Positions 51,276 to 64,000 of a stretch of 64,000 nt of DNA are shown piece by piece. How positions within the stretch are numbered: position 1 is the first letter of the stretch; each line of letters starts with the position of its first letter. The DNA is taken from assembly GCF_004319545.1 (NCBI RefSeq), contig NZ_CP036313.1, positions 2,420,501 to 2,484,500 of the forward strand, in the 5' to 3' direction. The notes under the pieces are model-generated. The model had not been told where the DNA came from. It searched no databases and saw only the letters and a list, made by a program, of their open reading frames with translations. Both the position numbers and the translations under genes were made by a program. Origin of the DNA: Desulfobacter hydrogenophilus (lineage in GTDB: Bacteria > Desulfobacterota > Desulfobacteria > Desulfobacterales > Desulfobacteraceae).

Positions 51276-53144
51276 TCAGACATTGTATCCCTTCTTTAAA
51301 CGGACAGGATCGATATTGTGTTTATCTTCCCCAGTCCCTAAATGATTGTTCTCACCATTTTTTAGCATATACACCAGGGACCAGCCTGGCTCGGGAACAA
51401 TCTGGCTGTCATGGGCATACACGTGAAGTCGGTTGGTTTTATCCACGGCAAATAATAGCAGAGCCTTTTGGCCATGTTTCTGTGTGAATTGCGCCAGTGT
51501 GAATTTTTCCGTCAGTTTTGTGGTGATAATATGCCCCCCACGGGCCATATCGGTCGCCATAGCAGGGTATGAGGCTGTTTGGCCAAACAGGATTTTTCCA
51601 TGGGTCTGGATGGACATCCGGTCTGCAGTCGACCTGTTCTCTTCCGGCCTGGAAGGCAGAATATAAATTTCATCAGCCCCGAATTCCAGACGATAGTGAA
51701 TGGCTACCGCCACGTTGGCCGCTTCATGGGGAAACAGGGCAAGCACCCCCCGGATGCCCACCAGCTGAATATGCCGGTCCGCATGTTCTGACACGGGATT
51801 GCCAAAATATGTGGGCAGCCCCTCGTTTTTGGCCTTCATCACCTGATCCCACCCGGTATCGGCCAGCTGAACCTGAAATCCAAGATCCATCAAGGCCTTG
51901 CCAATGGCACGCGCTAGTTGATTGGCCCCAAAAATGACAAAGCCGTTGGGAGTGGGCTCGGCCACCTTAAGCCACAGGGCAATGGGACGTGCTGTAACAC
52001 TTTGCACGATGACCGTGGAAATAATAATAAAAAAGGTCAGGGGTACCAGTACACCGGCATCCGGGTAGCCTGCCTTCTGGAGCTGTGTGGCGAACAAGGC
52101 TGAAATGGCTGCTGCCACGATTCCCCGGGGGGCAATCCAGGCCAGCATGTGCCGTTCCGGCCAGGTAAGGCGGGAACCGATACTGGACACCATGATGTTC
52201 ATGGGGCGGGCCAGAAACTGAATGGCGATGAATAAAAAACTCATTTCCCAGCCCAGGGCAATCAGCTCATCAATATTCAGCCGGGCGGCCAGCATAATAA
52301 AAAGGACAGAGATCAGCAGAATACTGATGTGTTCCTTGAAATCAAGAATGTCACCGATGGGTACATCCTTCATGTTGGCCAGCCAGATACCCATGACGGT
52401 GACCGTTACCAGACCCGCCTCATGCTGCAGATGATTGGAAAACACAAACGCACCCAGAACCAGGGAGATGGCAAACAGGTTGTGCATGAATTCTGGAATC
52501 CAGTGTTTGCGTATGGCCAGACCAAACCCATAGCCGCAGACCACACCAATGGCTGTACCCGTGGCCACCAGCCGTACAAAGACCAGGACGGTATGGCCCA
52601 TGGCCTGCTGGGCCGATCCAGATATGATGAATTCATAGGCCAGAACCGCCATGGCCGCACCGATGGGATCCACAATGATGCCTTCCCACCTGAGAATATT
52701 TGCGATGTTATGGTTGGGCCGGATCGTGCGCAGCATGGGTACAATAACGGTGGGGCCGCTCACGGATGTGATGGCACCCAGAAGCACGCTGATATGCCAG
52801 GACAACCCCAAACCCAACCGGGCGGCCAGGGCTGTGATGATCCAGGTGATCAGCATACCGAAGGACACCATGTTCCGGACCACCATGTGAAGACCCCGGA
52901 TCTGGGCAAAATCCAGGGTCAGGCTACCCTCAAACAGAATCAGGGCCACGGACATGGACACAAAGGGGAAAAAAAGATCCCCCATCATCTTTTCGGGGTT
53001 CAAAAGTCCCATTACGGGACCGGCCAGGATGCCGGTGATCAAAAGAAAAACAATTCCCGGAATCTTCACCCGCCAGGCCAGCCATTGACAGGCGGTGGCT
53101 GCGATCAGTATCCCCGAAATCTGTATGAGCGTGTATTCATTCAT
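51276..53144 (-). CDS. CPA-type Na+(K+)/H+ antiporter with TrkA-N-like domain
   Basis: The 622-aa protein has about twelve transmembrane helices in the first 395 residues, including VALILFEGSLTLDFAQIRGL, LLGAITSVSGPTVIVPMLRT, and ERHMLAWIAPRGIVAAAISA, typical for NhaP-like exchangers. A cytoplasmic nucleotide-binding-like domain follows (VIFGANQLARAIGKALMDLG), as in KefB/C and TrkA. It exchanges protons for Na+ or K+. It is transcribed alone towards the TonB operon and probably has no functional link. Confidence 0.9.
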   Translation of the reverse strand: MNEYTLIQISGILIAATACQWLAWRVKIPGIVFLLITGILAGPVMGLLNPEKMMGDLFFPFVSMSVALILFEGSLTLDFAQIRGLHMVVRNMVSFGMLITWIITALAARLGLGLSWHISVLLGAITSVSGPTVIVPMLRTIRPNHNIANILRWEGIIVDPIGAAMAVLAYEFIISGSAQQAMGHTVLVFVRLVATGTAIGVVCGYGFGLAIRKHWIPEFMHNLFAISLVLGAFVFSNHLQHEAGLVTVTVMGIWLANMKDVPIGDILDFKEHISILLISVLFIMLAARLNIDELIALGWEMSFLFIAIQFLARPMNIMVSSIGSRLTWPERHMLAWIAPRGIVAAAISALFATQLQKAGYPDAGVLVPLTFFIIISTVIVQSVTARPIALWLKVAEPTPNGFVIFGANQLARAIGKALMDLGFQVQLADTGWDQVMKAKNEGLPTYFGNPVSEHADRHIQLVGIRGVLALFPHEAANVAVAIHYRLEFGADEIYILPSRPEENRSTADRMSIQTHGKILFGQTASYPAMATDMARGGHIITTKLTEKFTLAQFTQKHGQKALLLFAVDKTNRLHVYAHDSQIVPEPGWSLVYMLKNGENNHLGTGEDKHNIDPVRLKKGYNV

Positions 53145-53370
53145 CGATTTTCAGTTATTCTCCCAAATTGCTCCTATACCCATCTTGAAATCCATATTGT
53201 TCGAAGCCCAATGTTAACCCAGCAGGTTTTCATTGACAAGGCCAAAGCCGAGAGCCTAAACTGACTGCGTTGTGCAGAATCACTGCGCAGCATTCCCGGA
53301 AAGTACACCTGAAAAGACAGCACAAAAAGAGTTGGAATACCAGTTTCAAAACTTAAAAAAGGAGGGTGAA

Positions 53371-54060
53371 ATGGACAGAAGAAAATTTTTAAAACTTTCA
53401 GCCGGTGCGGGTGCTCTTGCACTGTTTCAGATGACCGGTGTCAGCTGTAAAGGCCTTGGGGGGGGCATGATAATCCAAGCGTCTCTACCCTACAAAGCCG
53501 ATGCCCTGGAACCGTATCTTTCTGAAAAAACAATTCGCGTTCACTACGGGAAGCACCATGCCGGTTATGTAAAAAAATTGAACGGGATGATTAAAGGATC
53601 CGCCTACGCAGATATGACCATCGAGGCAATTATTCAGAAAACCTACGGCAGCACCGATGAGACCGGTATTTTTAATAATGCTGCCCAGGTCTTTAACCAT
53701 ACGTTCTACTGGAACAGCATGAAACCGGGTGGCGGCGGTGAGCCTACCGGTATCATTGCCGAAAAAATTCAAGCGGACTTCGGAAGTTTCTATGAATTCA
53801 AAAAAGCCTTTGCATCTGCAGCGCTTTCCCAGTTCGGCAGCGGATGGGCATGGCTGGTCAAAGACGGAGATGCGCTGAAAATAATTAAAACGGCAAACGC
53901 CGATACACCCATTGCCCAAGGGCTGACTCCGCTTCTTACCGTTGATGTATGGGAGCATGCATATTATCTGGATTATCAGAACCGGAGAGCAGACTATGTC
54001 GACACATATCTGGAACATCTGGTCAACTGGGAGTTTGCAGAAACCAATCTGGCCGGATAG
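53371..54060 (+). CDS. Tat-exported Fe/Mn superoxide dismutase
   Basis: From ATG 53371, behind AAAGGAGGG, the protein is 229 aa. The N-terminus MDRRKFLKL is a Tat motif, followed by a hydrophobic run and a Cys (VSCKG), which may be lipidated. Metal ligands of Fe/Mn SOD are seen in VHYGKHHAGYVKKLN, AQVFNHTFYWN, and VDVWEHAYYLDY. The enzyme removes superoxide in the periplasm, a typical defence of anaerobes. The longer reading frame from 53272 lacks a start signal. It stands alone between the antiporter gene and a MITE. Confidence 0.92.
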   Translation: MDRRKFLKLSAGAGALALFQMTGVSCKGLGGGMIIQASLPYKADALEPYLSEKTIRVHYGKHHAGYVKKLNGMIKGSAYADMTIEAIIQKTYGSTDETGIFNNAAQVFNHTFYWNSMKPGGGGEPTGIIAEKIQADFGSFYEFKKAFASAALSQFGSGWAWLVKDGDALKIIKTANADTPIAQGLTPLLTVDVWEHAYYLDYQNRRADYVDTYLEHLVNWEFAETNLAG

Positions 54061-54070
54061 AAAATAAATT

Positions 54071-54166
54071 AGGAACGGGGCTTAAATAACTTGTTCCTTT
54101 TACCATATTCGGGAGAGCGGGCGGGGACGTCCGCTCTCCCATATTAAGTTATTTTGAACTTGGGCC
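54071..54166. repeat. MITE-like repeat, copy R2
   Basis: The left end AGGAACGGGGCTTAAATAAC matches R1 almost exactly, and the right end read on the other strand is AGGCCCAAGTTCAAAATAAC. The centre is a GGGAGAGCGG/CCGCTCTCCC hairpin. TTA flanks both ends. The TAA stop codon of the minus-strand universal stress gene coincides with the right flank. Confidence 0.7.
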
Positions 54167-54637
54167 TTAGTCAACAATGACCACTGGGATGTTCAAGGTA
54201 TGCATTACCCGTGAAGCGTTGCTGCCAATAAAAAATTCTTTTAGACCTGAAGTCGAACTTCGTCCCATGGCAACAGTATTGTATTTTCCTTTTTGTGCCT
54301 CGTGTATAATGTCATCGGAAATCTTTTTGCCTTGGGGCTGCGTTTTTATATAAACTTTATCTTTGGCAAATCCGGCATTGATTAATTTATTCCTTGCGGC
54401 TTCAAGGGTGTCCCGAATTACTTTCTCGCGCTTTTCCTCCATCCGGCAGAAAGAATTGCGTTCTTTTTCAAAATAGGGCGTGAGACTGGGGCTGTTGAGC
54501 CCACAGGCTGCCGCAGTATTCGGCACTACATGAAACAGTGTGACCTCATCGTCCTTGTTCAGGTTTTCCCCAACATAGGTAACGGTATTTTGGGCGCATT
54601 CAGTTTCGTCAAAGGGAATCAGTATTTTGGCAGTCAT
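54167..54637 (-). CDS. universal stress protein (UspA family)
   Basis: The 156-aa single-domain protein begins MTAKILIPFDETECA and ends with the nucleotide-binding loop GRSSTSGLKEFFIGSNASRV followed by IPVVIVD, the G2xG9xG[ST] pattern of ATP-binding Usp proteins. The insert around residues 45-75 is longer than average. It is likely a stress-response factor with ATP-dependent oligomerisation. The start is behind AAAGGAG at 54651. Confidence 0.9.
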   Translation of the reverse strand: MTAKILIPFDETECAQNTVTYVGENLNKDDEVTLFHVVPNTAAACGLNSPSLTPYFEKERNSFCRMEEKREKVIRDTLEAARNKLINAGFAKDKVYIKTQPQGKKISDDIIHEAQKGKYNTVAMGRSSTSGLKEFFIGSNASRVMHTLNIPVVIVD

Positions 54638-54863: not shown

Positions 54864-56138
54864 CTATCTATCACATTCGGGAAGAAGAAAATACTGGTTG
54901 CTACTTTCCTTGACCGCTACCCGGGGAATGGGTTTGATGAATTGCTGGCGAAGGCTATAGGTGTAGGCCCCCTGGGCCGGAATCATGAGGATATCATTTT
55001 CTTTAATGGCCGAACCGAAATAGGCATATCCCCAGACATCATGAGGGGTGCAAAGGGAACCCAGAATATGGCACTTTTTTTCGGACAGGCTGGGCCGGGT
55101 TAAATTGAGCACCGGACAGTAATCGGTTTCATACCGTTCCCAACCCACCGCGTTGCCGCCGGCATCGGTGATGACCAGATTTTTTTCCTTGCAGTCCACC
55201 ACTTGGATGAGGATGTGCATGGCGTCATTGCAGATCCAGCGGCCCGGCTCAAAACAGATCCGGCATTGGGTCAAAGGCAGGATGTGCTCTTTAATGGCAC
55301 TTGACAGCTCTTTTGCAAACAGATTAATGGGGACCCCCGGGTCAATAATATAGTCCTGGGGCACATTCGATAAAAGCCACTCCCCTTGGGCTGGCCAGTA
55401 GCCGCCGCCAATATCAATGAATTGGATCGCATCCAGGAACTGTTTTGGCATGACGGAAAGAATTTCTCCCAGTGTTTTAATAAACGCTGTCTGTCTGTCC
55501 GGGTTAAGATTCCAGGACGAGTGAAACTGCAGTCCCTGGAAATCCAGCAGGTCAAGGGCCTGGATCTCTTTGAATGCAGACAACAGGTTTTCCGGCAGCA
55601 CACCGAATTTGCGCCACAAGCCTTCGGGATTGTTATTTAGCCGCAGTCCAACGGGCATGCGGGTTTGCTTTTCTTCAAGCACGGATGCCAGCCGTTTTGC
55701 CTCTCCGATGCTGTCCAGAAGAATCACCACCCGGTCCGGGTATCGGGCCGCAAGTTCTAATTCTGGGATGGTTTTGCCCGGTCCGCTGAACATAATGGAT
55801 GACGCGCCCAGTTCCAGGGCTACGGACAGTTCTATTCCGCTGGACACATCCAGCCCGAATCCGTGTTTGAGCAGATGCCCGGAAAGATGGGGCAGGTTGT
55901 TGCTTTTCATGGCGTAAAAAAAGGCTGTTTCCGGCAGACGATGGCTGAATGCCGCCCTGAACTGGGCTGCTTTTCTTGCCAGGATATCGGTTTCCAGAAC
56001 ATATAGAGGAGACCCGAACGCCTTGGCCATATCCAGGTACACCCCCTTGTTTTTTAAGTACGGGGTTATAAACTCAATTAGTTTTTCCCTGGGCAGAAGG
56101 GGAGTTGTGCTTGTTATCTGTGTATTGGCTGTGAGCAT
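54864..56138 (-). CDS. PLP-dependent decarboxylase, group III/IV (ODC/DAPDC type)
   Basis: The 424-aa product from ATG 56138 has PLP-lysine Lys78 in FFYAMKSNNLPHL, a GLDVSSGIEL strand, the EPGR phosphate-binding motif (CFEPGRWICND), and a cysteine in GSLCTPHDVWG that contributes to the other subunit's active site. It decarboxylates a diamino acid or amino-acid conjugate; the usual HVGS loop is replaced by LQFHSSWN, so the substrate is not predicted. A similar decarboxylase plus ATP-grasp pairing is found in siderophore clusters such as vibrioferrin. It is the last gene of the operon, overlapped by an alternative start at 56177. Confidence 0.85.
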   Translation of the reverse strand: MLTANTQITSTTPLLPREKLIEFITPYLKNKGVYLDMAKAFGSPLYVLETDILARKAAQFRAAFSHRLPETAFFYAMKSNNLPHLSGHLLKHGFGLDVSSGIELSVALELGASSIMFSGPGKTIPELELAARYPDRVVILLDSIGEAKRLASVLEEKQTRMPVGLRLNNNPEGLWRKFGVLPENLLSAFKEIQALDLLDFQGLQFHSSWNLNPDRQTAFIKTLGEILSVMPKQFLDAIQFIDIGGGYWPAQGEWLLSNVPQDYIIDPGVPINLFAKELSSAIKEHILPLTQCRICFEPGRWICNDAMHILIQVVDCKEKNLVITDAGGNAVGWERYETDYCPVLNLTRPSLSEKKCHILGSLCTPHDVWGYAYFGSAIKENDILMIPAQGAYTYSLRQQFIKPIPRVAVKESSNQYFLLPECDR

Positions 56139-56145
56139 TCTAAGT

Positions 56146-57438
56146 CTAATCCATTTCAATGTCGATACGTTTGGCAAGCAAAAGACACTCTGTTTCGAAA
56201 AATCTGTGCCTGTGCGGTTCTATAATCATGTGCCCTAAAAGCCATGAATCATAGTCCTGAGGCGGCATGGTCACCCTGTGCCCCGGGGGATGAATCAGGT
56301 GTATTTTTTTTATCCGTTTGTCGTTTTCCACGGCAGCGGTGTTGATGCGTTTTAATACGCCATTTCTGCGGGCATGAATACGAAACGCCACCAGGGGGCT
56401 ATAGTGACCAGTTTTTTCATTTTTCCAGGCAATGCCTTGTGCCGCATCCAGGGTCAACCCAATTATATCGATGTTGCCTGCCTCCTTGAGCAAAAAGGGC
56501 AGGCAGTCTCCACCGGGTCGCGGGGTCATCTCTATGAGCACAGGGTTTTTGTGTCGCAGGATAAAATCCACCATGCAGACGCCGGTCTTAATGCCCAATG
56601 TCCTGGCTGCCCTGTGGAACAGGTTTGAAAGTTTTTCATTTGAAGGCATTTTTTCATCATCATCGGTTTCCGGGCAGATCGCATACCCGGAAATGGTACC
56701 GAAGGGCCGGCTATCCACTTTTATTTTCTGGGTTTTGCGCAGGATAACAGCCCGGTCTTTTTCCATGAGAAAGTCACAGGAAAATTCAGGGCCTGCGACC
56801 CATTCCTCGGCCAGCATCTGGAATGAGCCGGCATCCGTGGGTTTAAACAATGGATTGCCGGTTCGTGCCGCAAGCCCGTCTGTTACCGCATTGAATGCGG
56901 TATCACACTGCCTTCGGGTGACGCATTTGAATACAAGTTCGCTGCCGGAACCGCAGAAGGGTTTGAGTACAATACCCGCCGGTACCTGGTCCAGAAAGTT
57001 TAATACCTCTATTTCGGTGTTGACCGGGCAGGTTTGGGGACAAGGGATTTGACATTGCCGCCACAATTGTTTTGAGATATATTTATCTCTGCTGTTCCTG
57101 ATTGTCTCAATATCGGGATAGGGCAGGCCCATCTTTTCTGCGAGAATGGATGTGGTCTCCATGGATTCGCAGTCAAAGCAGGCAATGCCGGAAAGGGTAA
57201 CCCCGAAGATTTTTTTGTGGTGGTTTAATGCCTGAACTGCGGCGTCAATATCGCAGATGGGGCATAAAATTTCTTCTCCATTGTCCGGACAGGGCTCGGT
57301 AGCTTTTTCACGAACCTTGGGTTCTGTCAGAAAAAGTGCCTGTCCGGGACGGATTTTTCTGATCCATTCAATGTAGTCAGATGTGGTACCCACCACCAGT
57401 ACCTGATTTTTGTCAGGCTCAGACTGCTTTTCGCCCAT
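56146..57438 (-). CDS. ATP-grasp ligase
   Basis: The 430-aa product from ATG 57438 has an N-terminal Rossmann-like region, the ATP-grasp ATP-binding stretch GIVLKPFCGSGSELVFKCV at about residues 160-180 and the metal-binding motif VDFILRHKNPVLIEMTPRPG at about residue 290. It would form an amide bond by way of an acyl phosphate. It overlaps the acyltransferase gene by 20 bases and is followed by the decarboxylase after 7 bases. Substrates are unknown; an amino acid or polyamine acceptor would fit the neighbours. Confidence 0.85.
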   Translation of the reverse strand: MGEKQSEPDKNQVLVVGTTSDYIEWIRKIRPGQALFLTEPKVREKATEPCPDNGEEILCPICDIDAAVQALNHHKKIFGVTLSGIACFDCESMETTSILAEKMGLPYPDIETIRNSRDKYISKQLWRQCQIPCPQTCPVNTEIEVLNFLDQVPAGIVLKPFCGSGSELVFKCVTRRQCDTAFNAVTDGLAARTGNPLFKPTDAGSFQMLAEEWVAGPEFSCDFLMEKDRAVILRKTQKIKVDSRPFGTISGYAICPETDDDEKMPSNEKLSNLFHRAARTLGIKTGVCMVDFILRHKNPVLIEMTPRPGGDCLPFLLKEAGNIDIIGLTLDAAQGIAWKNEKTGHYSPLVAFRIHARRNGVLKRINTAAVENDKRIKKIHLIHPPGHRVTMPPQDYDSWLLGHMIIEPHRHRFFETECLLLAKRIDIEMD

Positions 57439-58375
57439 AATGGCTCCCATGGAAAACCTCCGTGTCCGGCTGGGTGTGAATCTCATATGACGGTCTGGGG
57501 CTTAGGCGAAACCGCTCTTTCCAGTTGAAACTGCCACACAGAAAATCCACGGCTTCCATGCGGTTGTGGCAGGCCCATTCCAGGTGGTGCAGGTTAATCA
57601 CCTTGGCAATACCGGCAAACTCCGAGTGGGTTCCCCCGGCCACAACCGTGTAGGTATTATTGAAAACGGCACCCATATCCACGGCCGCAATTTTTCCTTC
57701 CACAATGGCTGTGGTGACCCTGAGCATGCCCATATCCTTCAGATACGCTGCAAACCGTTCAAAGGACCGGTAAAACCGTGCATCGCTGAAGTAGGAATCC
57801 GATGTAAATGCTGCCATGTTCAAACGGAACATCTCAGATAGATCCGGCAGATGATTGTATCGCCAGGTGAGTTGCCGCGCCTCAATTTTTTTTACATCTG
57901 CCTTGAGTTTTTTTCTGGTTTTCCCCGGGAATGTCAGCCAGAAATTATCCATGGAAAAATCATAAATCCGGGGGTAAAACAGGTATCCGGTTTCATCCGG
58001 CCGGGCCTGGGTCAGGCCGTCCATGAATGGGTGCCGGCGCAGGTATCTTAAGTTTAAAGGACCTGGTACCGAGTCGCACAATGCGTTGAACACTTCCGGG
58101 GATTGGGCTATGATCCGGTTTTGCTCCAGCCAGGTTTTACCTCTCCAGGTTTCCCCGGGAAAAAATACATATTCCCCGGTTTCTTCGACTATACTTAAGG
58201 GAAGAAATCCCACAACCCGGCCCTTGTCTTCGATAAGATGGAAGCTTAAAGGTCTTTTGAATGCGGTGTTAAAACATTGTCTGACGGCCCATAGATCAAA
58301 TATGTCCTGGACTGGCCAGTATTTTTCCCAGGCCTGCCGGCAACGTTCCGGATCTGTAATGATAATGGTTTTCAT
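57419..58375 (-). CDS. GNAT/FemAB-like acyltransferase (Acetyltransf_6)
   Basis: The 318-aa protein shows the double-GNAT architecture of the Acetyltransf_6 family: FPGKTRKKLKADVKKIEARQ, FRLNMAAFTSDSYFSDARFY, and VTTAIVEGKIAAVDMGAVFN. It ends RLSPRPSYEIHTQ. Relatives transfer aminoacyl or acyl groups, often to cell-wall or polyamine-type acceptors. It starts 11 bases after the AdoMetDC-like gene. The natural donor is unknown. Confidence 0.8.
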   Translation of the reverse strand: MKTIIITDPERCRQAWEKYWPVQDIFDLWAVRQCFNTAFKRPLSFHLIEDKGRVVGFLPLSIVEETGEYVFFPGETWRGKTWLEQNRIIAQSPEVFNALCDSVPGPLNLRYLRRHPFMDGLTQARPDETGYLFYPRIYDFSMDNFWLTFPGKTRKKLKADVKKIEARQLTWRYNHLPDLSEMFRLNMAAFTSDSYFSDARFYRSFERFAAYLKDMGMLRVTTAIVEGKIAAVDMGAVFNNTYTVVAGGTHSEFAGIAKVINLHHLEWACHNRMEAVDFLCGSFNWKERFRLSPRPSYEIHTQPDTEVFHGSHYGRKAV

Positions 58376-58386
58376 TGTTCTCCCAC

Positions 58387-58776
58387 CTAATGCCGGTAAG
58401 TCACGTTAAGCCGGGATGTTTTCCCACCGAAATAGTTTTGGGAAAATTCTCGGACCACTTCAGGGTCGTAGACCTTGCATGAAAACACATCCAGATAGGT
58501 GACATTGCTCTGGTTGGCAAAGTGTGCGGATATCAACGAGGTTTCAATGAGCTGGACCATTGAAAATCCGGCAACTTTTTCATCTTCTCCAAAATGGACC
58601 ACCTGGGTTTCGCCGAAGCGCTTCATTTCAATCAGGTCACACAGCTCAACAACAAAGCGTTTGATCAGTTCTGCGTCTCTGATTTTTTCAGGATCGCAGT
58701 CGTAGATGTCGATTGCGGAGGCAATGCCCCATACATCAGGGGCGGTTTCAAGTTTGATTACTTTTGCAGCGGTCAT
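58387..58776 (-). CDS. S-adenosylmethionine decarboxylase-like (SpeD/SpeH) pyruvoyl protein
   Basis: The 129-aa protein matches the short bacterial AdoMetDC proenzyme layout: VVHFGEDEKVAGFSMVQLIE, SLISAHFANQ and VTYLDVFSCKVYDPEVV. Self-cleavage normally occurs at an ES pair in ESHISIH; here the pair is TS in IETSLISAH, so the residue before the pyruvoyl-forming Ser differs. The Cys in FSCK is conserved. Some divergent SpeD homologues decarboxylate other amino acids, so the substrate may not be SAM. It precedes the acyltransferase by 11 bases. Confidence 0.75.
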   Translation of the reverse strand: MTAAKVIKLETAPDVWGIASAIDIYDCDPEKIRDAELIKRFVVELCDLIEMKRFGETQVVHFGEDEKVAGFSMVQLIETSLISAHFANQSNVTYLDVFSCKVYDPEVVREFSQNYFGGKTSRLNVTYRH

Positions 58777-58798
58777 TGTTTTTTCCTTTAAATGTAGT

Positions 58799-58960
58799 CT
58801 ACCATTTGTCTCTGGTTTCAGTCGGGCGTTTTGATTGTTTGTTCATTTTTTTTCGGCGTTTCTGATCTTCCTGCTTATCTTCCCAGCCATAATCTTCGTC
58901 GTAGCTCTCTTTGAATTTTGGGCTCTTGCCTTTGTTCCGGCTGATCTTTTCCTTGGTCAT
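58799..58960 (-). CDS. 53-aa highly charged protein, first gene of sigma-54 operon
   Basis: The sequence MTKEKISRNKGKSPKFKESY then DEDYGWEDKQEDQ and a basic tail has a GAGG ribosome binding site 8 bases upstream of ATG 58960. It is full of Lys, Glu and Asp, with no hydrophobic core, so it is probably disordered. It lies 22 bases before the AdoMetDC-like gene and about 50 bases after the predicted sigma-54 transcription start. I do not know its function; it may be a leader or accessory peptide. Confidence 0.65.
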   Translation of the reverse strand: MTKEKISRNKGKSPKFKESYDEDYGWEDKQEDQKRRKKMNKQSKRPTETRDKW

Positions 58961-59023
58961 GACTTTTTTCCTCTTTGGTTTTGGACCGGCTGTTTTGGCC
59001 GGGTGGAATTTTATGTTTGTATA

Positions 59024-59038
59024 GCAACCTGTGTGCCA
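59024..59038 (-). promoter_or_regulatory. sigma-54 (-24/-12) promoter of the decarboxylase/ATP-grasp operon
   Basis: Read on the minus strand, TGGCACACAGGTTGC fits the consensus TGGCAC-N5-TTGC exactly. Transcription would begin near 59010, about 50 bases before the 53-aa gene. The divergent gene at 59318 encodes a sigma-54 activator, which fits this promoter. The stretch 59040-59317 has AT-rich inverted repeats such as TATCTATTAATTCAGATA that may be its enhancer sites. Confidence 0.8.
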
Positions 59039-59317
59039 GTGTTATTATAAAAAAATAATATCTATTAATTCAGATAGTTATCGTGTGTGATGTAGTTCTT
59101 ATACTGGGTTTTTCGGAAAATTTTTGCTGAAATATAAAAATGGTGGCATTTTATGGTTAAATTGGTAATTTTTAGCCGATTTGTAATGTGGATGATTATG
59201 GTGTGCCAAGATTTTACATCGGTTATAAAAGTATGTTGCTTGTTTTTTAGAATTTATATATACTTCAGCATCTTATGAAAAATAGTAATATTTTACCGGA
59301 AATAAAACGAGCTTTTT

Positions 59318-60739
59318 ATGTTGATTCGCCTGGCATGTGCCATTAAAGAGACAAAGATACGCACCGAGCTTGCGAACAGACTGGCGGAACAGGATGTTCA
59401 GCTTCAGTTTTTTAAGCCCAGTACCCTCTTCTGGCAGGCCCTTGCCAGAAGCTGCGCCGACGTGTTTATTGTCAGCAGCTCCACAATTCCCAAGCCTGTT
59501 GAATCAAGTATTTCCCTGCTCAATGAATTGCCTGAAGCGCCCATGACCGTCGTGCTGCATAATCGGGAGTCCTCGGAAGAACATGCCAATCTTCTGGCCG
59601 CCGGTGTTGATGTAGTGCTTTATTCGGGTATCCCAATAGACAGTCTTTTTGAAGCCCTTGAAACCACACTGGAATCCCGCCGTCAGTTCTATTATGCGGA
59701 ACGGTTTGACCGGCGGGGGCGCTTTCTGCCCCGGCTTAACGATTTTACCTCCAACAGCCGGGATATGCAGGCGTTTCTGGATGAAACCCGGCAGGTGGTG
59801 TCCAGTGACGCCACCATACTGCTGCTTGGTGAGACAGGTGTGGGCAAGGAACATCTGTCCAAGGCCATCCATGCAGACAGCCATAGATCCACAGGTCCTT
59901 TCATTGCCATAAATATGGCAGCCATTCCGGAACAGCTGATGGAAAGCGAACTGTTCGGACATGAGCAGGGGGCCTTTACCGGGGCCGTGCGCTCCCGGCG
60001 GGGGGCATTTGAACTTGCCCATGGCGGCACTATTTTTCTAGACGAAATTGGGGAGATGCCCCTGCAGATGCAGACCAAGCTGCTTCGGGTGCTGCAGGAA
60101 CTTGAATTTACGCCGGTGGGTGGTGAAAAACCGGTATGGGTGGATGTCCGGGTGATTGCGGCCACCAATAAAGACCTCGAAGAGGAGGTTGAAAAGGGAA
60201 CCTTCCGAAAAGATCTTTATTACCGGCTTGGGGTTATTTCATTAACGCTTCCCCCCTTGAGAAAGCGTAAAGAGGATATCCCCTCACTGACCAACCATTT
60301 TTTGACCATGAACCAGCAGAAATTCGGCAGAAACCTCAAACGATTTTCCCAGCCGGCCATGGAGGCTTTGTGCAATTACCACTGGCCGGGCAATATCCGT
60401 GAATTGATGAACGTTATTGAGCGGGCTGTTCTGCTGTGCAAGTCAGATATGATGACTCTGGAAGAGCTGCCGTCGGTTTTCCATAATGCCAAACCCGTCC
60501 GGGTGGGCGATGGTGACTCGACGCTTTCGTTGCCCCGGGAATGGGAATCCATGGCCCTGCCCCAGATCCGGGACGCCGTTTATGATCAGGTGGAAGCGTT
60601 GTATCTATCCATGGTGCTCAAGAAAACCCGAGGTAAAATCGGAGAAACCGCTAAAATTGCAGGCATTCATCCCAGGGGCCTGTATGCCAAAATGAAAAAA
60701 CTGGGACTGGATAAAGCTGAGTTTAAAGCCAAAGGATAA
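59318..60739 (+). CDS. sigma-54-dependent transcriptional activator with degenerate receiver domain
   Basis: The 473-aa protein has a receiver-like domain (residues 1-125), an AAA+ domain (about 145-385) and a C-terminal Fis-type HTH (GKIGETAKIAGIHPRGLYAK). The Walker A is LLLGETGVGKEHL, the GAFTGA loop that contacts sigma-54 is complete (EQGAFTGAVRS), and Walker B is GGTIFLDEIGEMP. In the receiver, the phosphoacceptor aspartate is replaced by serine (FIVSSSTIPK), so phosphorylation is unlikely. It probably activates the promoter at 59024-59038, and its signal may be a small molecule. ATG 59318 is chosen for the intact receiver start. Confidence 0.92.
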   Translation: MLIRLACAIKETKIRTELANRLAEQDVQLQFFKPSTLFWQALARSCADVFIVSSSTIPKPVESSISLLNELPEAPMTVVLHNRESSEEHANLLAAGVDVVLYSGIPIDSLFEALETTLESRRQFYYAERFDRRGRFLPRLNDFTSNSRDMQAFLDETRQVVSSDATILLLGETGVGKEHLSKAIHADSHRSTGPFIAINMAAIPEQLMESELFGHEQGAFTGAVRSRRGAFELAHGGTIFLDEIGEMPLQMQTKLLRVLQELEFTPVGGEKPVWVDVRVIAATNKDLEEEVEKGTFRKDLYYRLGVISLTLPPLRKRKEDIPSLTNHFLTMNQQKFGRNLKRFSQPAMEALCNYHWPGNIRELMNVIERAVLLCKSDMMTLEELPSVFHNAKPVRVGDGDSTLSLPREWESMALPQIRDAVYDQVEALYLSMVLKKTRGKIGETAKIAGIHPRGLYAKMKKLGLDKAEFKAKG

Positions 60740-61336
60740 GTGTTCATGTATTCGCCCTTTCATTACCAGATTTCTGAGTATGACTGTGTGCCCACAGCCA
60801 TTACCAATGCCATTTCCTTTTTGTTTCACCGTAAAGAAATCCCCCCTATGGTTCTTCGGCATCTTTATCTTTATTGCCTTGATACGGTGGGACAAGACTC
60901 CCGATTCGGTCTTGGCGGTACCAGTAAATATGCCGTACGTATGGTGGGCAACTGGCTTAATTCTTACCGTAGGAAGTCTTTTTCCGTTGCCACACAGTTC
61001 CTGGAAAAAGAACAGGTCTCCCTGGAATCGGGTGGGCAGATCGAATCCTGTCTGTCAGAGGGCGGGGTGGTGCTGTGTAATATCCTTTTGACCCCCCGTG
61101 ATGAACATTATCTTATGGTCATGGACATGGATGACGAGTGGATATACTGCTTTGATTCATACCGCAGGCAATCCATCCGTGGCATGAAGGGAATGGCCCG
61201 GGTGATCAATGACGGTGACGGCCGGTCACCCAATCTGAAAATAAAGCGGGACTGGGTCGGGCAGGGCCAGGTGAAACGGTTTTGTTTGGGACCCATACCG
61301 ATGCGTGAAAGTCTTTTAATCTGGCGGACATCCTAG
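60740..61336 (+). CDS. C39-like cysteine peptidase/papain-fold protein
   Basis: The 198-aa protein starts right after the activator stop (TAA then GTG; ATG 60746 is an alternative). It has the Cys motif SEYDCVPTAITNAI and later histidine and aspartate in RDEHYLMVMDMDDEWIYCFD, the C39-like catalytic order. The middle carries RFGLGGTSKYAVRMVGNWLN. No signal peptide or transmembrane part is present. It may process or transfer the product of the divergent operon rather than a bacteriocin leader, since no leader peptide gene is visible. Confidence 0.7.
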   Translation: MFMYSPFHYQISEYDCVPTAITNAISFLFHRKEIPPMVLRHLYLYCLDTVGQDSRFGLGGTSKYAVRMVGNWLNSYRRKSFSVATQFLEKEQVSLESGGQIESCLSEGGVVLCNILLTPRDEHYLMVMDMDDEWIYCFDSYRRQSIRGMKGMARVINDGDGRSPNLKIKRDWVGQGQVKRFCLGPIPMRESLLIWRTS

Positions 61337-61964: not shown

Positions 61965-64000
61965 TCAAATTTGTTTAAGAATTTTTTTTGCCTCATCCGC
62001 CCCTTTAAAGTCTTCCTTTAGCTCAAGCGCCTTTTTCAGGTATCGTTTAGCATTTATGTAATCCCACTTTTTGTTGTAGGCCAGGCCTATATGAAAGTTG
62101 AAAATCGGGTTTTCAGGTTCTTTTTCAATGCAGTTGGAGAACTCTTGAATGGCAGAATCATAGAGTTCTTTTTTGTAGTAGATCCAGCCCAGGGTATCCA
62201 TGATGGCCGGGACTTCCCCGCTGAGTTCCTTGGCCTTTCTGGCCAGATCCAGGGCTTTGTTCATTTCTATGTTTTGCTCGGCATAGAAAAAAGCCAGGTT
62301 GTTCAAGGCGGGAATGTATTCCGGATTTAGTTCAAGTACTTTTTCGTAATGGGCCTTTGCCTGTTCATTTTTGTTCCTTTTTTCGTAGAAAAGGCCAAGC
62401 TGGAAATGGGGTTCGATCTGTTCCGGGCGCTGGGCCAGCAGGCTTTGATAAATCTCAAGCTCTTTCTTATTATTTTCTTCCCGGTGGTATATCCTGGCCA
62501 GGGCAAGGTAGGGTTGAGTATATTTGGGATTCGACTGGATGGACAGTTCAAAGGCTTGCTTTGCAGCATCCGAATTCCCAAGGGCCATGAAAAGGTTACC
62601 CCTGATGCCCTGGATAATGGAGACCACAACAGGCGAGGGGTCCTGAAGGGCTTCAAGATGGGCATCACACCTGTCAAGGGCAGTCTGATACTCTTTCTCG
62701 GCGCTGTACAGCCGGATTATGTTGATGAAAACATCCATAAGGTTTGGGTTAATGGCCAGGGCTTTGTCATAGACCGCCAATGCCTGGTTCGGTTTTTTGT
62801 CCATCATAAAAAGATTGCCCAGCCTGAACAGTGCCGCCGGATTTTTGGGATGGTCCTGGATTAAAGCCTCATAAACAGCCTGGGCTTGTTGTGTTTTCTG
62901 CTGGGCTGCGTAAATGTTTGCCTTCAGCAAAAGGGCCTCATAGTTTTCAGGTCTCAGGTTTAATGCCTTGTTAATTTCAGACTCGGCCAGAAAATAGTCG
63001 GCCTGTTTGAAATAGATATCCGCCATGATGATTCTTGCTTTGAGATGAGAGGGGTTCTTTTCCAGGGTTTTGGCAATATAGGCCATGGCCTGATCTGTTT
63101 TTTTGTCTTCCAGGAGCACAGATCCCATCAAAAAATTGTATCGGGCTGAGTCCGGCTCCTCTTCCAGCAGGGACAAGAGAACTTGCTTGGCCTGGGTCAA
63201 TTTTTTTCGGGAGGTCAAAAGCTTTGCCTTGAGGACTTTTGCCTGGGGAAAGTCGGGCCGGGTTGCCAATACCTCATCAATCATTTCTTCAGATTTTTGA
63301 TATTCCTGGTGACGGAAATAAAAGTCGGCATAGGCGGTTTTCAAGCCCGCATGTTCCGGATGGATGGCCAGGGCTTTTTTGATAAACTCTTCTGCCTTGT
63401 CCGGCTGTTCATTGGCATTGTAGAACCGGGCAATGAGCATGTAGGGCAAAGGATTGTCCGGGGCCAGTTCAATCGCTTTTAAAAAGGATTGCTCTGCCTG
63501 ACTGTTTTCATCTAGGCCGGCCTGGAAGTTGGCCAGCATGATTCTGGGTTCAACCGCCTTCGGTTTTTGGTCCACCAGATCGTCAAGAACAGCCCGAGCT
63601 TTGTCATCGGCCTTTTGGGACAGGTAATACCTGAAGACAACTTGGTTGATGTTTAAGTCATCTGGCGCCGTTGCCAGGGCTTTTTTCAGCATGGCTTCGG
63701 CTTTGTCAGAATCCTTTTGGGTCTGGTAGATCCTTGCAAGGACCAGCATGGCTCTGGTCTGTTCGGAATCCAGCGCAAGAATTCGTTCATAAATACCCGC
63801 CAGGGTCTCCAATGTTTCTTTTTTGCTGCCCAGGATTCCGGCTTTCAGATAGAGTCCTTTGATGTTGTCCGGGTCAGCAGTAAGGACCTGTGCCACTTTC
63901 TTTTCCGCGTCAGACCATTTTTTGGCCAGAAAATAGAACGAGGCCAGTTGGAGTTTGGTATCAAGATTGTCCGGCTCCAGTTCCTCCAGCCGTAAAAATG
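61965..64000 (-). CDS. large TPR-repeat protein, C-terminal part (5' end outside window)
   Basis: The frame is open to the window end, giving more than 675 visible residues. They form about eighteen consecutive TPR units of 34 residues, for example PHFQLGLFYEKRNKNEQAKA, IPALNNLAFFYAEQNIEMNK and FNFHIGLAYNKKWDYINAKR. The repeat density and lack of other domains resemble the exported PEP-CTERM-associated (PrsT-like) TPR proteins or generic protein scaffolds. The start, and any signal peptide, lies outside. It is transcribed towards the C39-like gene with a 600-base gap. Confidence 0.85.
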   Translation of the reverse strand, partial: FLRLEELEPDNLDTKLQLASFYFLAKKWSDAEKKVAQVLTADPDNIKGLYLKAGILGSKKETLETLAGIYERILALDSEQTRAMLVLARIYQTQKDSDKAEAMLKKALATAPDDLNINQVVFRYYLSQKADDKARAVLDDLVDQKPKAVEPRIMLANFQAGLDENSQAEQSFLKAIELAPDNPLPYMLIARFYNANEQPDKAEEFIKKALAIHPEHAGLKTAYADFYFRHQEYQKSEEMIDEVLATRPDFPQAKVLKAKLLTSRKKLTQAKQVLLSLLEEEPDSARYNFLMGSVLLEDKKTDQAMAYIAKTLEKNPSHLKARIIMADIYFKQADYFLAESEINKALNLRPENYEALLLKANIYAAQQKTQQAQAVYEALIQDHPKNPAALFRLGNLFMMDKKPNQALAVYDKALAINPNLMDVFINIIRLYSAEKEYQTALDRCDAHLEALQDPSPVVVSIIQGIRGNLFMALGNSDAAKQAFELSIQSNPKYTQPYLALARIYHREENNKKELEIYQSLLAQRPEQIEPHFQLGLFYEKRNKNEQAKAHYEKVLELNPEYIPALNNLAFFYAEQNIEMNKALDLARKAKELSGEVPAIMDTLGWIYYKKELYDSAIQEFSNCIEKEPENPIFNFHIGLAYNKKWDYINAKRYLKKALELKEDFKGADEAKKILKQI

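Follow-up and report, generated by a model that had tools for sequence, protein, structure and literature searches.

Evidence for a compact, conserved, sigma-54-linked biosynthetic operon in Desulfobacter hydrogenophilus

A 64-kb stretch of the Desulfobacter hydrogenophilus genome (5.16 Mb in three contigs), hereafter the window, carries a row of minus-strand genes for a small charged protein, a pyruvoyl decarboxylase (SPED), a GNAT transferase, an ATP-grasp ligase and a pyridoxal phosphate (PLP) decarboxylase, in that order, with a sigma-54 activator gene and one further gene running divergently on the plus strand. Do these genes belong together, what might switch them on, and what might they make? 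A preliminary description of this DNA had proposed a biosynthetic system consisting of this set, and the genes are indeed present: Pfam matches were obtained for the PLP, ATP-grasp, GNAT, AdoMet_dc and activator proteins, and the first open reading frame (ORF) encodes 53 amino acids. We find that the operon is real and that its gene order is widely conserved; the evidence set out below supports a compact, conserved, sigma-54-linked biosynthetic operon. Its features, in window coordinates, are as follows.

59024..59038, minus strand: sigma-54 -24/-12 promoter site TGGCACACAGGTTGC, 63 nt upstream of the small ORF, single match
58799..58960, minus strand: ORF for a highly charged small protein of 53 amino acids, operon gene 1
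58387..58776, minus strand: predicted SpeDC-type pyruvoyl L-ornithine decarboxylase (SPED; AdoMet_dc family, PF02675, 2.2e-23; diagnostic residues)
57419..58375, minus strand: probable FemX-like double-GNAT transferase (PF13480; AlphaFold model, Foldseek and VIA matches)
56146..57486, minus strand: ATP-grasp carboxylate-amine ligase (PF13535, PF02655), start probably further in
54864..56144, minus strand: alanine-racemase-fold PLP decarboxylase (PF02784/PF00278; nearest solved relatives FigC and BtrK)
59318..60739, plus strand: divergent sigma-54 activator with a degenerate receiver-like domain (PF00158, 6.6e-71)
60740..61336, plus strand: C39-fold papain-like cysteine enzyme by predicted fold (C16, H123, D139), downstream of the activator

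Conservation of the gene neighbourhood

A profile built from 22 aligned ATP-grasp sequences identified 129 encoding loci in genome contigs, 80 of which were kept and scanned by tblastn with seven window proteins; presence was counted only where the flanking sequence sufficed. The GNAT, ATP-grasp and PLP genes stand in the window's order in 64 of the 66 loci with enough flank, and the pyruvoyl gene accompanies these core three in 55 of 66. Taken singly, GNAT lies upstream of ATP-grasp in 73 of 75 judgeable loci (exceptions L051 and L055) and PLP downstream of it in 72 of 73 (exception L105), with SPED present in 60/72 and the activator, as judged by tblastn, in 43/61. When the three closest loci are excluded, the median identities to the window's proteins are 76% for SPED (60 loci), 51% for PLP, 46% for GNAT and 40% for the ligase. 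The preliminary description had named neighbourhood co-occurrence as the check on its proposal and lack of conservation as its refutation; what was found is a core that stays together, in order, almost everywhere it can be judged. It had also known of no described pathway with exactly this set, and no description was found in the literature searched, which left out most subscription journals.

Judged by the ATP-grasp protein, the closest named relatives are Desulfobacter. Record titles of the loci name Desulfobacter, other Desulfobacterales, Planctomycetota, Zixibacteria, Hydrogenedentota, Sumerlaeota, Armatimonadetes, Lentisphaerae, Krumholzibacteriia and Nitrospirae, a spread over phyla that is open to mis-binning, many of the loci coming from metagenome-assembled genomes. 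Within the phylum of D. hydrogenophilus the ligase has a patchy distribution (14 of 395 genomes at E<=1e-60; 13 of 246 genera), and at E<=1e-50 it occurs in 20 of 40 chosen relatives, the own genome being included in both genome counts. Occurrence in bacteria named as several phyla, together with the existence of two regulatory versions, suggests that the product matters to its hosts.

Some gene boundaries differ from the longest ORFs. The listed ATP-grasp ORF starts at 57486 and overlaps the GNAT gene by 68 bases; because the alignment begins only at residue 20 or later in 60 of the 80 loci, translation probably begins at an internal ATG near 57438-57450. At its longest, the PLP ORF begins with a TTG at 56177; the PLP scans used 54864-56144. 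The C39-fold ORF starts at 60740, immediately past the activator's stop at 60739.

Two further genes were seen near copies of the operon elsewhere. One Desulfobacterales genome has a second GNAT of the same cluster about 1.5 kb past PLP (L108, 14102-15061), and a saccharopine-dehydrogenase-fold protein (PF03435/PF16653), possibly a polyamine enzyme, is encoded near the Lentisphaerae copy that is without PLP and SPED (L105, 15431-16897).

Sigma-54 control and the small charged protein

The motif TGGCAC-N5-TTGC occurs once in the 64 kb, on the minus strand at the position listed above; 0.21 occurrences are expected by chance, and at least one match appeared in 16 of 100 shuffles. Alone, such a predicted site is weak evidence, and it becomes strong once conservation is counted. 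The best match to TGGCA(C/T)-N5-TTGC, with GG and GC required, was scored in 70 of the 80 loci. At least nine of the ten bases are matched in 41 of 49 activator loci versus 3 of 21 others, the region scanned being the intergenic stretch in the former and a fixed 600 bases in the latter, and on the opposite strand 1 of the 49 activator loci reaches nine. Two of the three site-bearing loci outside the activator group (L054, L066) lie on contigs that end too soon for an activator to be seen; within that group, L048 and L062 have no promoter site (best 6 and 5 of 10). The host genome has an RpoN family match, and the features of a sigma-54 activator regulon were all found, namely an AAA+ domain with GAFTGA, RpoN and a -24/-12 promoter. 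These data agree with the promoter and divergent activator of the preliminary description, and predicted sigma-54 control of the operon is well supported.

The divergent activator adjoins the operon in 49 of the 75 loci that have SPED or GNAT, and in L049 and L052 it is just 39-43% identical to the window's. In an alignment of 38 activators selected by length and position (the window's plus 37 of the cluster's 51), 37 retain GAFTGA. Where the phosphoacceptor is presumed to lie, 34 of the 38 have Ser and none has Asp, which suggests that control is probably not exerted through phosphorylation. A TetR-family gene was found upstream in 12 loci by clustering, with TetR_N confirmed by Pfam in both of those tested. 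The operon thus occurs in two regulatory versions, with the activator and the charged protein in one and a TetR gene in others. The small protein and activator of the preliminary description are marks of one version only.

The 53-aa protein has no NCBIfam match, no Pfam match above cut-off and nine database relatives (best 6.1e-23). A profile of 14 sequences (13 loci plus the window) detected a relative on the upstream side of SPED or GNAT in 26 of the 49 activator loci, of which 12 had served as seeds for the profile. Among the 26 loci without a visible activator it detected one, in the seed L054 on a cut contig; the counts exclude the five loci that have neither SPED nor GNAT, and divergent members may be missed. 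L051 and L055, which fall outside the count, show a similar ORF by eye and no adjacent activator.

Predicted enzymes and a tentative pathway

The pyruvoyl protein had been called AdoMetDC-like, that is, similar to S-adenosylmethionine decarboxylase. It does belong to the AdoMet_dc family, but its diagnostic residues are those of SpeDC. According to section 7 of PMC10407285, four residues (Q, T, F, Y) are diagnostic of AdoMetDC-derived ornithine decarboxylases. With their positions set by motif and by D. phosphitoxidans-type fusions, these residues and the processing and catalytic Ser/His/Cys pattern are found in 62 of 63 SPED orthologues, the 63rd being cut by a contig end, and in 55 of 55 in a stricter alignment. 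SPED is predicted from them to be a SpeDC L-ornithine decarboxylase and not an AdoMetDC. The own genome encodes a paralogue about 1 Mb away, outside the window, as a SpeD-SpeDC fusion beside a spermidine-synthase match (C1:3434194). This fusion retains Ser, His and Cys; in Desulfobacter latus the second domain of a fusion of this kind is called degraded (PMC10407285, section 6). Searches of the own genome gave no OKR_DC_1 match, no PvlArgDC match and two PF02784 matches, one of which is the window's PLP gene. Within the operon, Pfam and NCBIfam scans showed no aminopropyltransferase or carboxyspermidine enzyme.

The AlphaFold model of the GNAT protein (predicted local distance difference test score 90.8) has a double-GNAT fold. 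Its best matches were FemX, FemA and Sba18/Sbb17 by VIA and FemX and Sba18/Sbb17 by Foldseek, and no PDB match was found at the sequence level. The enzyme is probably FemX-like and aminoacyl-tRNA-dependent. From these fold matches, the GNAT/FemAB-like acyltransferase of the preliminary description now looks like a FemX enzyme of the aminoacyl-tRNA type. GNAT-fold aminoacyl-tRNA-dependent enzymes are reviewed in PMC12945691, where Lys305 of FemX is named; K286 of the window protein, part of a W-K-x-x-F motif and present in 72 of 73 sequences, may correspond to that lysine.

Searched against PDB with phmmer, the PLP enzyme ranked FigC (7kh2) at 2.3e-25, BtrK at 1.2e-18, diaminopimelate decarboxylase (DAPDC) at 8.7e-17, a lysine/ornithine decarboxylase at 4e-15 and ornithine decarboxylases from 3.3e-8. 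This order, a ranking and not a tree, would fit a place in clade 2 of the alanine-racemase-fold decarboxylases (FigC, BtrK, SbnH and MccE with DAPDC) and not among ornithine or arginine decarboxylases, although the best NCBIfam profile is lysA. The enzyme carries an LCTPHD motif, of which CTP-D is invariant in 72 of the 73 sequences aligned, with a gap at that place in the last. According to PMC7857480, FigC, SbnH, AcsE, MccE and BtrK group with DAPDC, belong to specialised metabolism and use larger conjugated substrates. Since the FigC and BtrK relatives act on conjugated amino acids, ligation probably comes before decarboxylation, and the opposite order proposed earlier is probably wrong for this enzyme. 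No NRPS-independent siderophore (NIS; IucA/IucC) synthetase, NRPS standing for nonribosomal peptide synthetase, was found among the eight window proteins scanned; the remaining genome was not searched for one.

The ligase matches PF13535 at 44.2 bits against a cut-off of 27, and also PF02655. Residues K175, R250, E319 and R323 are present in all 81 sequences. The profile's best PDB match is the L-amino acid ligase BL00235 (1.3e-21), tied with 4dim (named phosphoribosylglycinamide synthetase; 1.4e-21). Several cysteines are near-constant (C328 81/81, C106 79/81, C304 78/81, C188 77/81, C149 62/81) and possibly form a metal or redox site.

The gene behind the activator, presented earlier as a C39-like peptidase, gave no Pfam match at E<=1 (PF03412 and PF13529 included) and no NCBIfam match. 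Its low-confidence model has a predicted C39 papain-like fold with a Cys/His/Asp set, and Foldseek returned no match at E<=0.001; lacking a sequence-family match, it is labelled C39-fold and not a family member. The gene is on the activator's side in seven loci, adjoining in L032-L034 and 1.3-1.6 kb off in L035, L036, L041 and L046, and beside the activator in six of seven same-genus stretches (L136, L137, L139, L140, L142, L143), with none within 2.1 kb of the activator in L138. Nine loci have another kind of C39-type gene close to the operon, PF13529 being confirmed in all three tested, and in six of the nine (L061, L062, L076, L088, L104, L108) it is directly downstream of PLP on the same strand. 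In L079, L084 and L093 the operon is followed directly by a set of RLAN, RimK ATP-grasp and GNAT-DUF3335 (C39-like) genes (clustering; Pfam in L093), which is a second amide-ligase system.

Beyond these genes, positions 61965-63896 of the window encode a long TPR protein whose match to PrsT of the XrtA/PEP-CTERM system (299.1 bits) falls just under the cut-off of 312.2. The stretch 51276-54637, adjoining the operon, encodes three proteins: a universal stress protein (PF00582), an Fe/Mn superoxide dismutase that also matches a TAT signal (PF02777/PF00081/PF10518), and a Na+/H+ exchanger carrying TrkA_N (PF00999).

The reading that we prefer, at a chance we would put a little short of even, is that the operon makes, independently of NRPS, a small molecule that is amide-linked and decarboxylated and resembles a pseudopeptide amine, with putrescine supplied by SpeDC where present. 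SpeDC would convert L-ornithine to putrescine, as its residues indicate. The ATP-grasp enzyme would, going by its family, activate a carboxylate as an acyl phosphate and form an amide, and the PLP enzyme would, like its nearest solved relatives FigC and BtrK, strip the alpha-carboxylate from an amino acid within the conjugate. To judge by its fold, the GNAT would place an aminoacyl group, most likely taken from aminoacyl-tRNA, on a free amine of the product, and the C39-fold enzyme might conceivably hydrolyse or transfer the product's amide bond. The divergent activator, seemingly without a phosphorylatable receiver, would sense some signal and let the sigma-54 promoter fire. All of this chemistry is inferred; the direct observations are gene order, conservation, residues, predicted folds and promoter conservation. 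The chemistry class, comprising amide ligation, conjugate decarboxylation and aminoacyl transfer, is reasonably supported, and because the enzymes are short and apparently soluble it is directly testable.

Several points weigh against this pathway. No enzyme of the set was matched to a substrate and no transport gene belongs to it, and matches to a predicted fold are no proof of aminoacyl-tRNA use. NCBIfam ranks the PLP enzyme as lysA (130.1 bits), TIGR03099 (107.9) and FslC (99.4), all far under their cut-offs, and the C39 gene is present in only part of the loci and poorly modelled. The strongest point, against an obligatory role for putrescine, is that the core three genes can persist without SPED, which is absent in 12 of 72 judgeable loci and carries large internal deletions in 5 of the 14 same-genus genomes having the ligase (L136-L140; genomes G005, G006, G013, G015 and G016). 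The deletions follow at least four different patterns, those of G006 and G016 looking alike and perhaps being one event, and the other operon enzymes of these genomes are intact at 81-90% identity. All five shortened ORFs are in frame from their own start through the normal stop codon, suggesting that translation of the next gene depends on the SPED frame or that the short product matters; a 44-aa remnant in L037, which has lost the normal C-terminus, counts against a general frame-keeping rule. Seven SPED-less loci (L049, L057, L061, L062, L076, L105, L141) show no clear remnant, and in L104 and L108 there is no more than a short SPED-like beginning on the GNAT gene, as a fusion. With SPED missing or deleted in so many genomes, putrescine may not be a building block; its supply by SpeDC is an accessory dropped by several lineages, and the ligase, PLP enzyme and GNAT are the constant core. 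In L049, L051, L052 and L055, genes for a SpeD-SpeDC fusion, a spermidine synthase, a RimI-like GNAT, LPG_synthase_C and a metallo-beta-lactamase fold stand divergently beside the operon (one member of each family checked by Pfam). These four loci with polyamine genes have a single arrangement in common and probably come from close relatives.

Alternatives and known systems

Might the product not be a free small molecule at all? The ligase, GNAT and decarboxylase could build an amine or aminoacyl group on the 53-aa Lys/Asp-rich protein, used as a carrier like BtrI or LysW or as the target. The gene for the small protein opens the operon and has relatives at the same place in about half of the activator loci, and BtrK acts on a carrier protein (PMC7857480). 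BtrK has an ATP-grasp partner. However, it was not found in any of the 12 TetR loci, where the enzymes are alike, only the cut contig of L054 has it among loci without a visible activator, and reading its sequence revealed no recognisable carrier motif; we think protein modification unlikely. A siderophore-like or E-64-like product, in which a carboxylic acid, an amino acid and putrescine yield an inhibitor or metal chelator for export and the C39-fold protein shields the producer, appears to us rather doubtful. Sigma-54 control is unusual for iron uptake, which weighs against a siderophore, and none of the window proteins scanned belongs to a NIS synthetase, transporter, TonB receptor or oxygenase family, even though FigC belongs to rhizoferrin biosynthesis (PMC7857480). 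To make E-64 and its analogues, an ATP-grasp enzyme together with a second ligase joins an acid and an amino acid to agmatine, putrescine or cadaverine (PMC12568646), and a protein of predicted papain fold is encoded in the locus.

Modification of the envelope, by an amine on lipid, peptidoglycan or polysaccharide as is thought for XrtA/PEP-CTERM FemAB and decarboxylase genes, would fit the envelope precursors on which FemX and the lysyl-phosphatidylglycerol synthases among the fold matches act. The GNAT and PLP proteins match the exosortase-associated families TIGR03019 and TIGR03099, but only at 23.5 bits against a cut-off of 260.35 and 107.9 against 478.45. Glycosyltransferase genes (cluster 47) lie less than 10 kb from the operon in L098, L104 and L108 (Pfam checked in L104), and outside these three no recurring envelope gene was recognised when the 40 largest clusters were read, without a family search of each; this explanation seems to us quite improbable. 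It is very unlikely that the operon is mainly a regulated putrescine/spermidine module. Its SpeDC residues point to putrescine and the own genome is without an OKR_DC_1 or PvlArgDC match, but the operon has no spermidine synthase or carboxyspermidine enzyme, the strong spermidine-synthase match sits by the other, fused SpeD-SpeDC, and of the four enzyme genes SpeDC is lost most often, with the other three retained.

A wider claim, which we hold to be a doubtful one, is that of a new metabolite class of several phyla: putrescine- or ornithine-derived non-NRPS pseudopeptides whose makers would be an ATP-grasp ligase, a conjugate-acting decarboxylase and a transferase dependent on aminoacyl-tRNA. 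Its production would have a sigma-54 on-switch in one lineage, where the molecules may be assembled on the charged 53-aa protein or delivered by it, and probably TetR repression in another. The gene set gives SpeDC a testable role beyond plain polyamine synthesis, and in it charged tRNAs of translation may feed a small-molecule pathway in sulfate reducers.

Each enzyme has known counterparts. SPED shares all four diagnostic residues and the self-processing Ser/His/Cys with SpeDC (Li et al. 2023, PMC10407285). SpeDC is known from polyamine clusters (SpeD/SpeE, CASDH/CASDC, HSS), whereas SPED lies beside ATP-grasp, GNAT and PLP genes; the words 'ATP-grasp' and 'GNAT' are absent from the text of that paper. 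Among natural-product aminoacyl-tRNA-dependent GNATs, Sba18 and Sbb17 are among the best fold matches of the window protein, and Orf11/BD-12 and DhpH-C are further examples (PMC12945691). The PLP enzyme shares LCTP-D with BtrK of butirosin biosynthesis, where FigC has SCMQHD. FigC/FslC, the N-citrylornithine decarboxylase of rhizoferrin biosynthesis, has a NIS synthetase as its partner and BtrK an acyl carrier protein, and neither kind of partner is encoded here. The E-64 pathway (PMC12568646) is an ATP-grasp precedent for joining an acid, an amino acid and a polyamine, but it has a second ligase, and the window operon is without a second adenylating ligase. L-amino acid ligases such as BL00235 and BacD are of the same ATP-grasp family, a point of difference being the near-constant cysteines of the window ligase. 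Amidoligase systems combining ATP-grasp, GNAT and C39 peptidase genes (RLAN/RimK, GNAT-DUF3335) were reportedly described by Iyer and co-workers in 2009. The RLAN/RimK systems bring together a ligase, a GNAT and a C39-fold enzyme, as here, whereas the window operon uses another ligase family and has two decarboxylases in addition.

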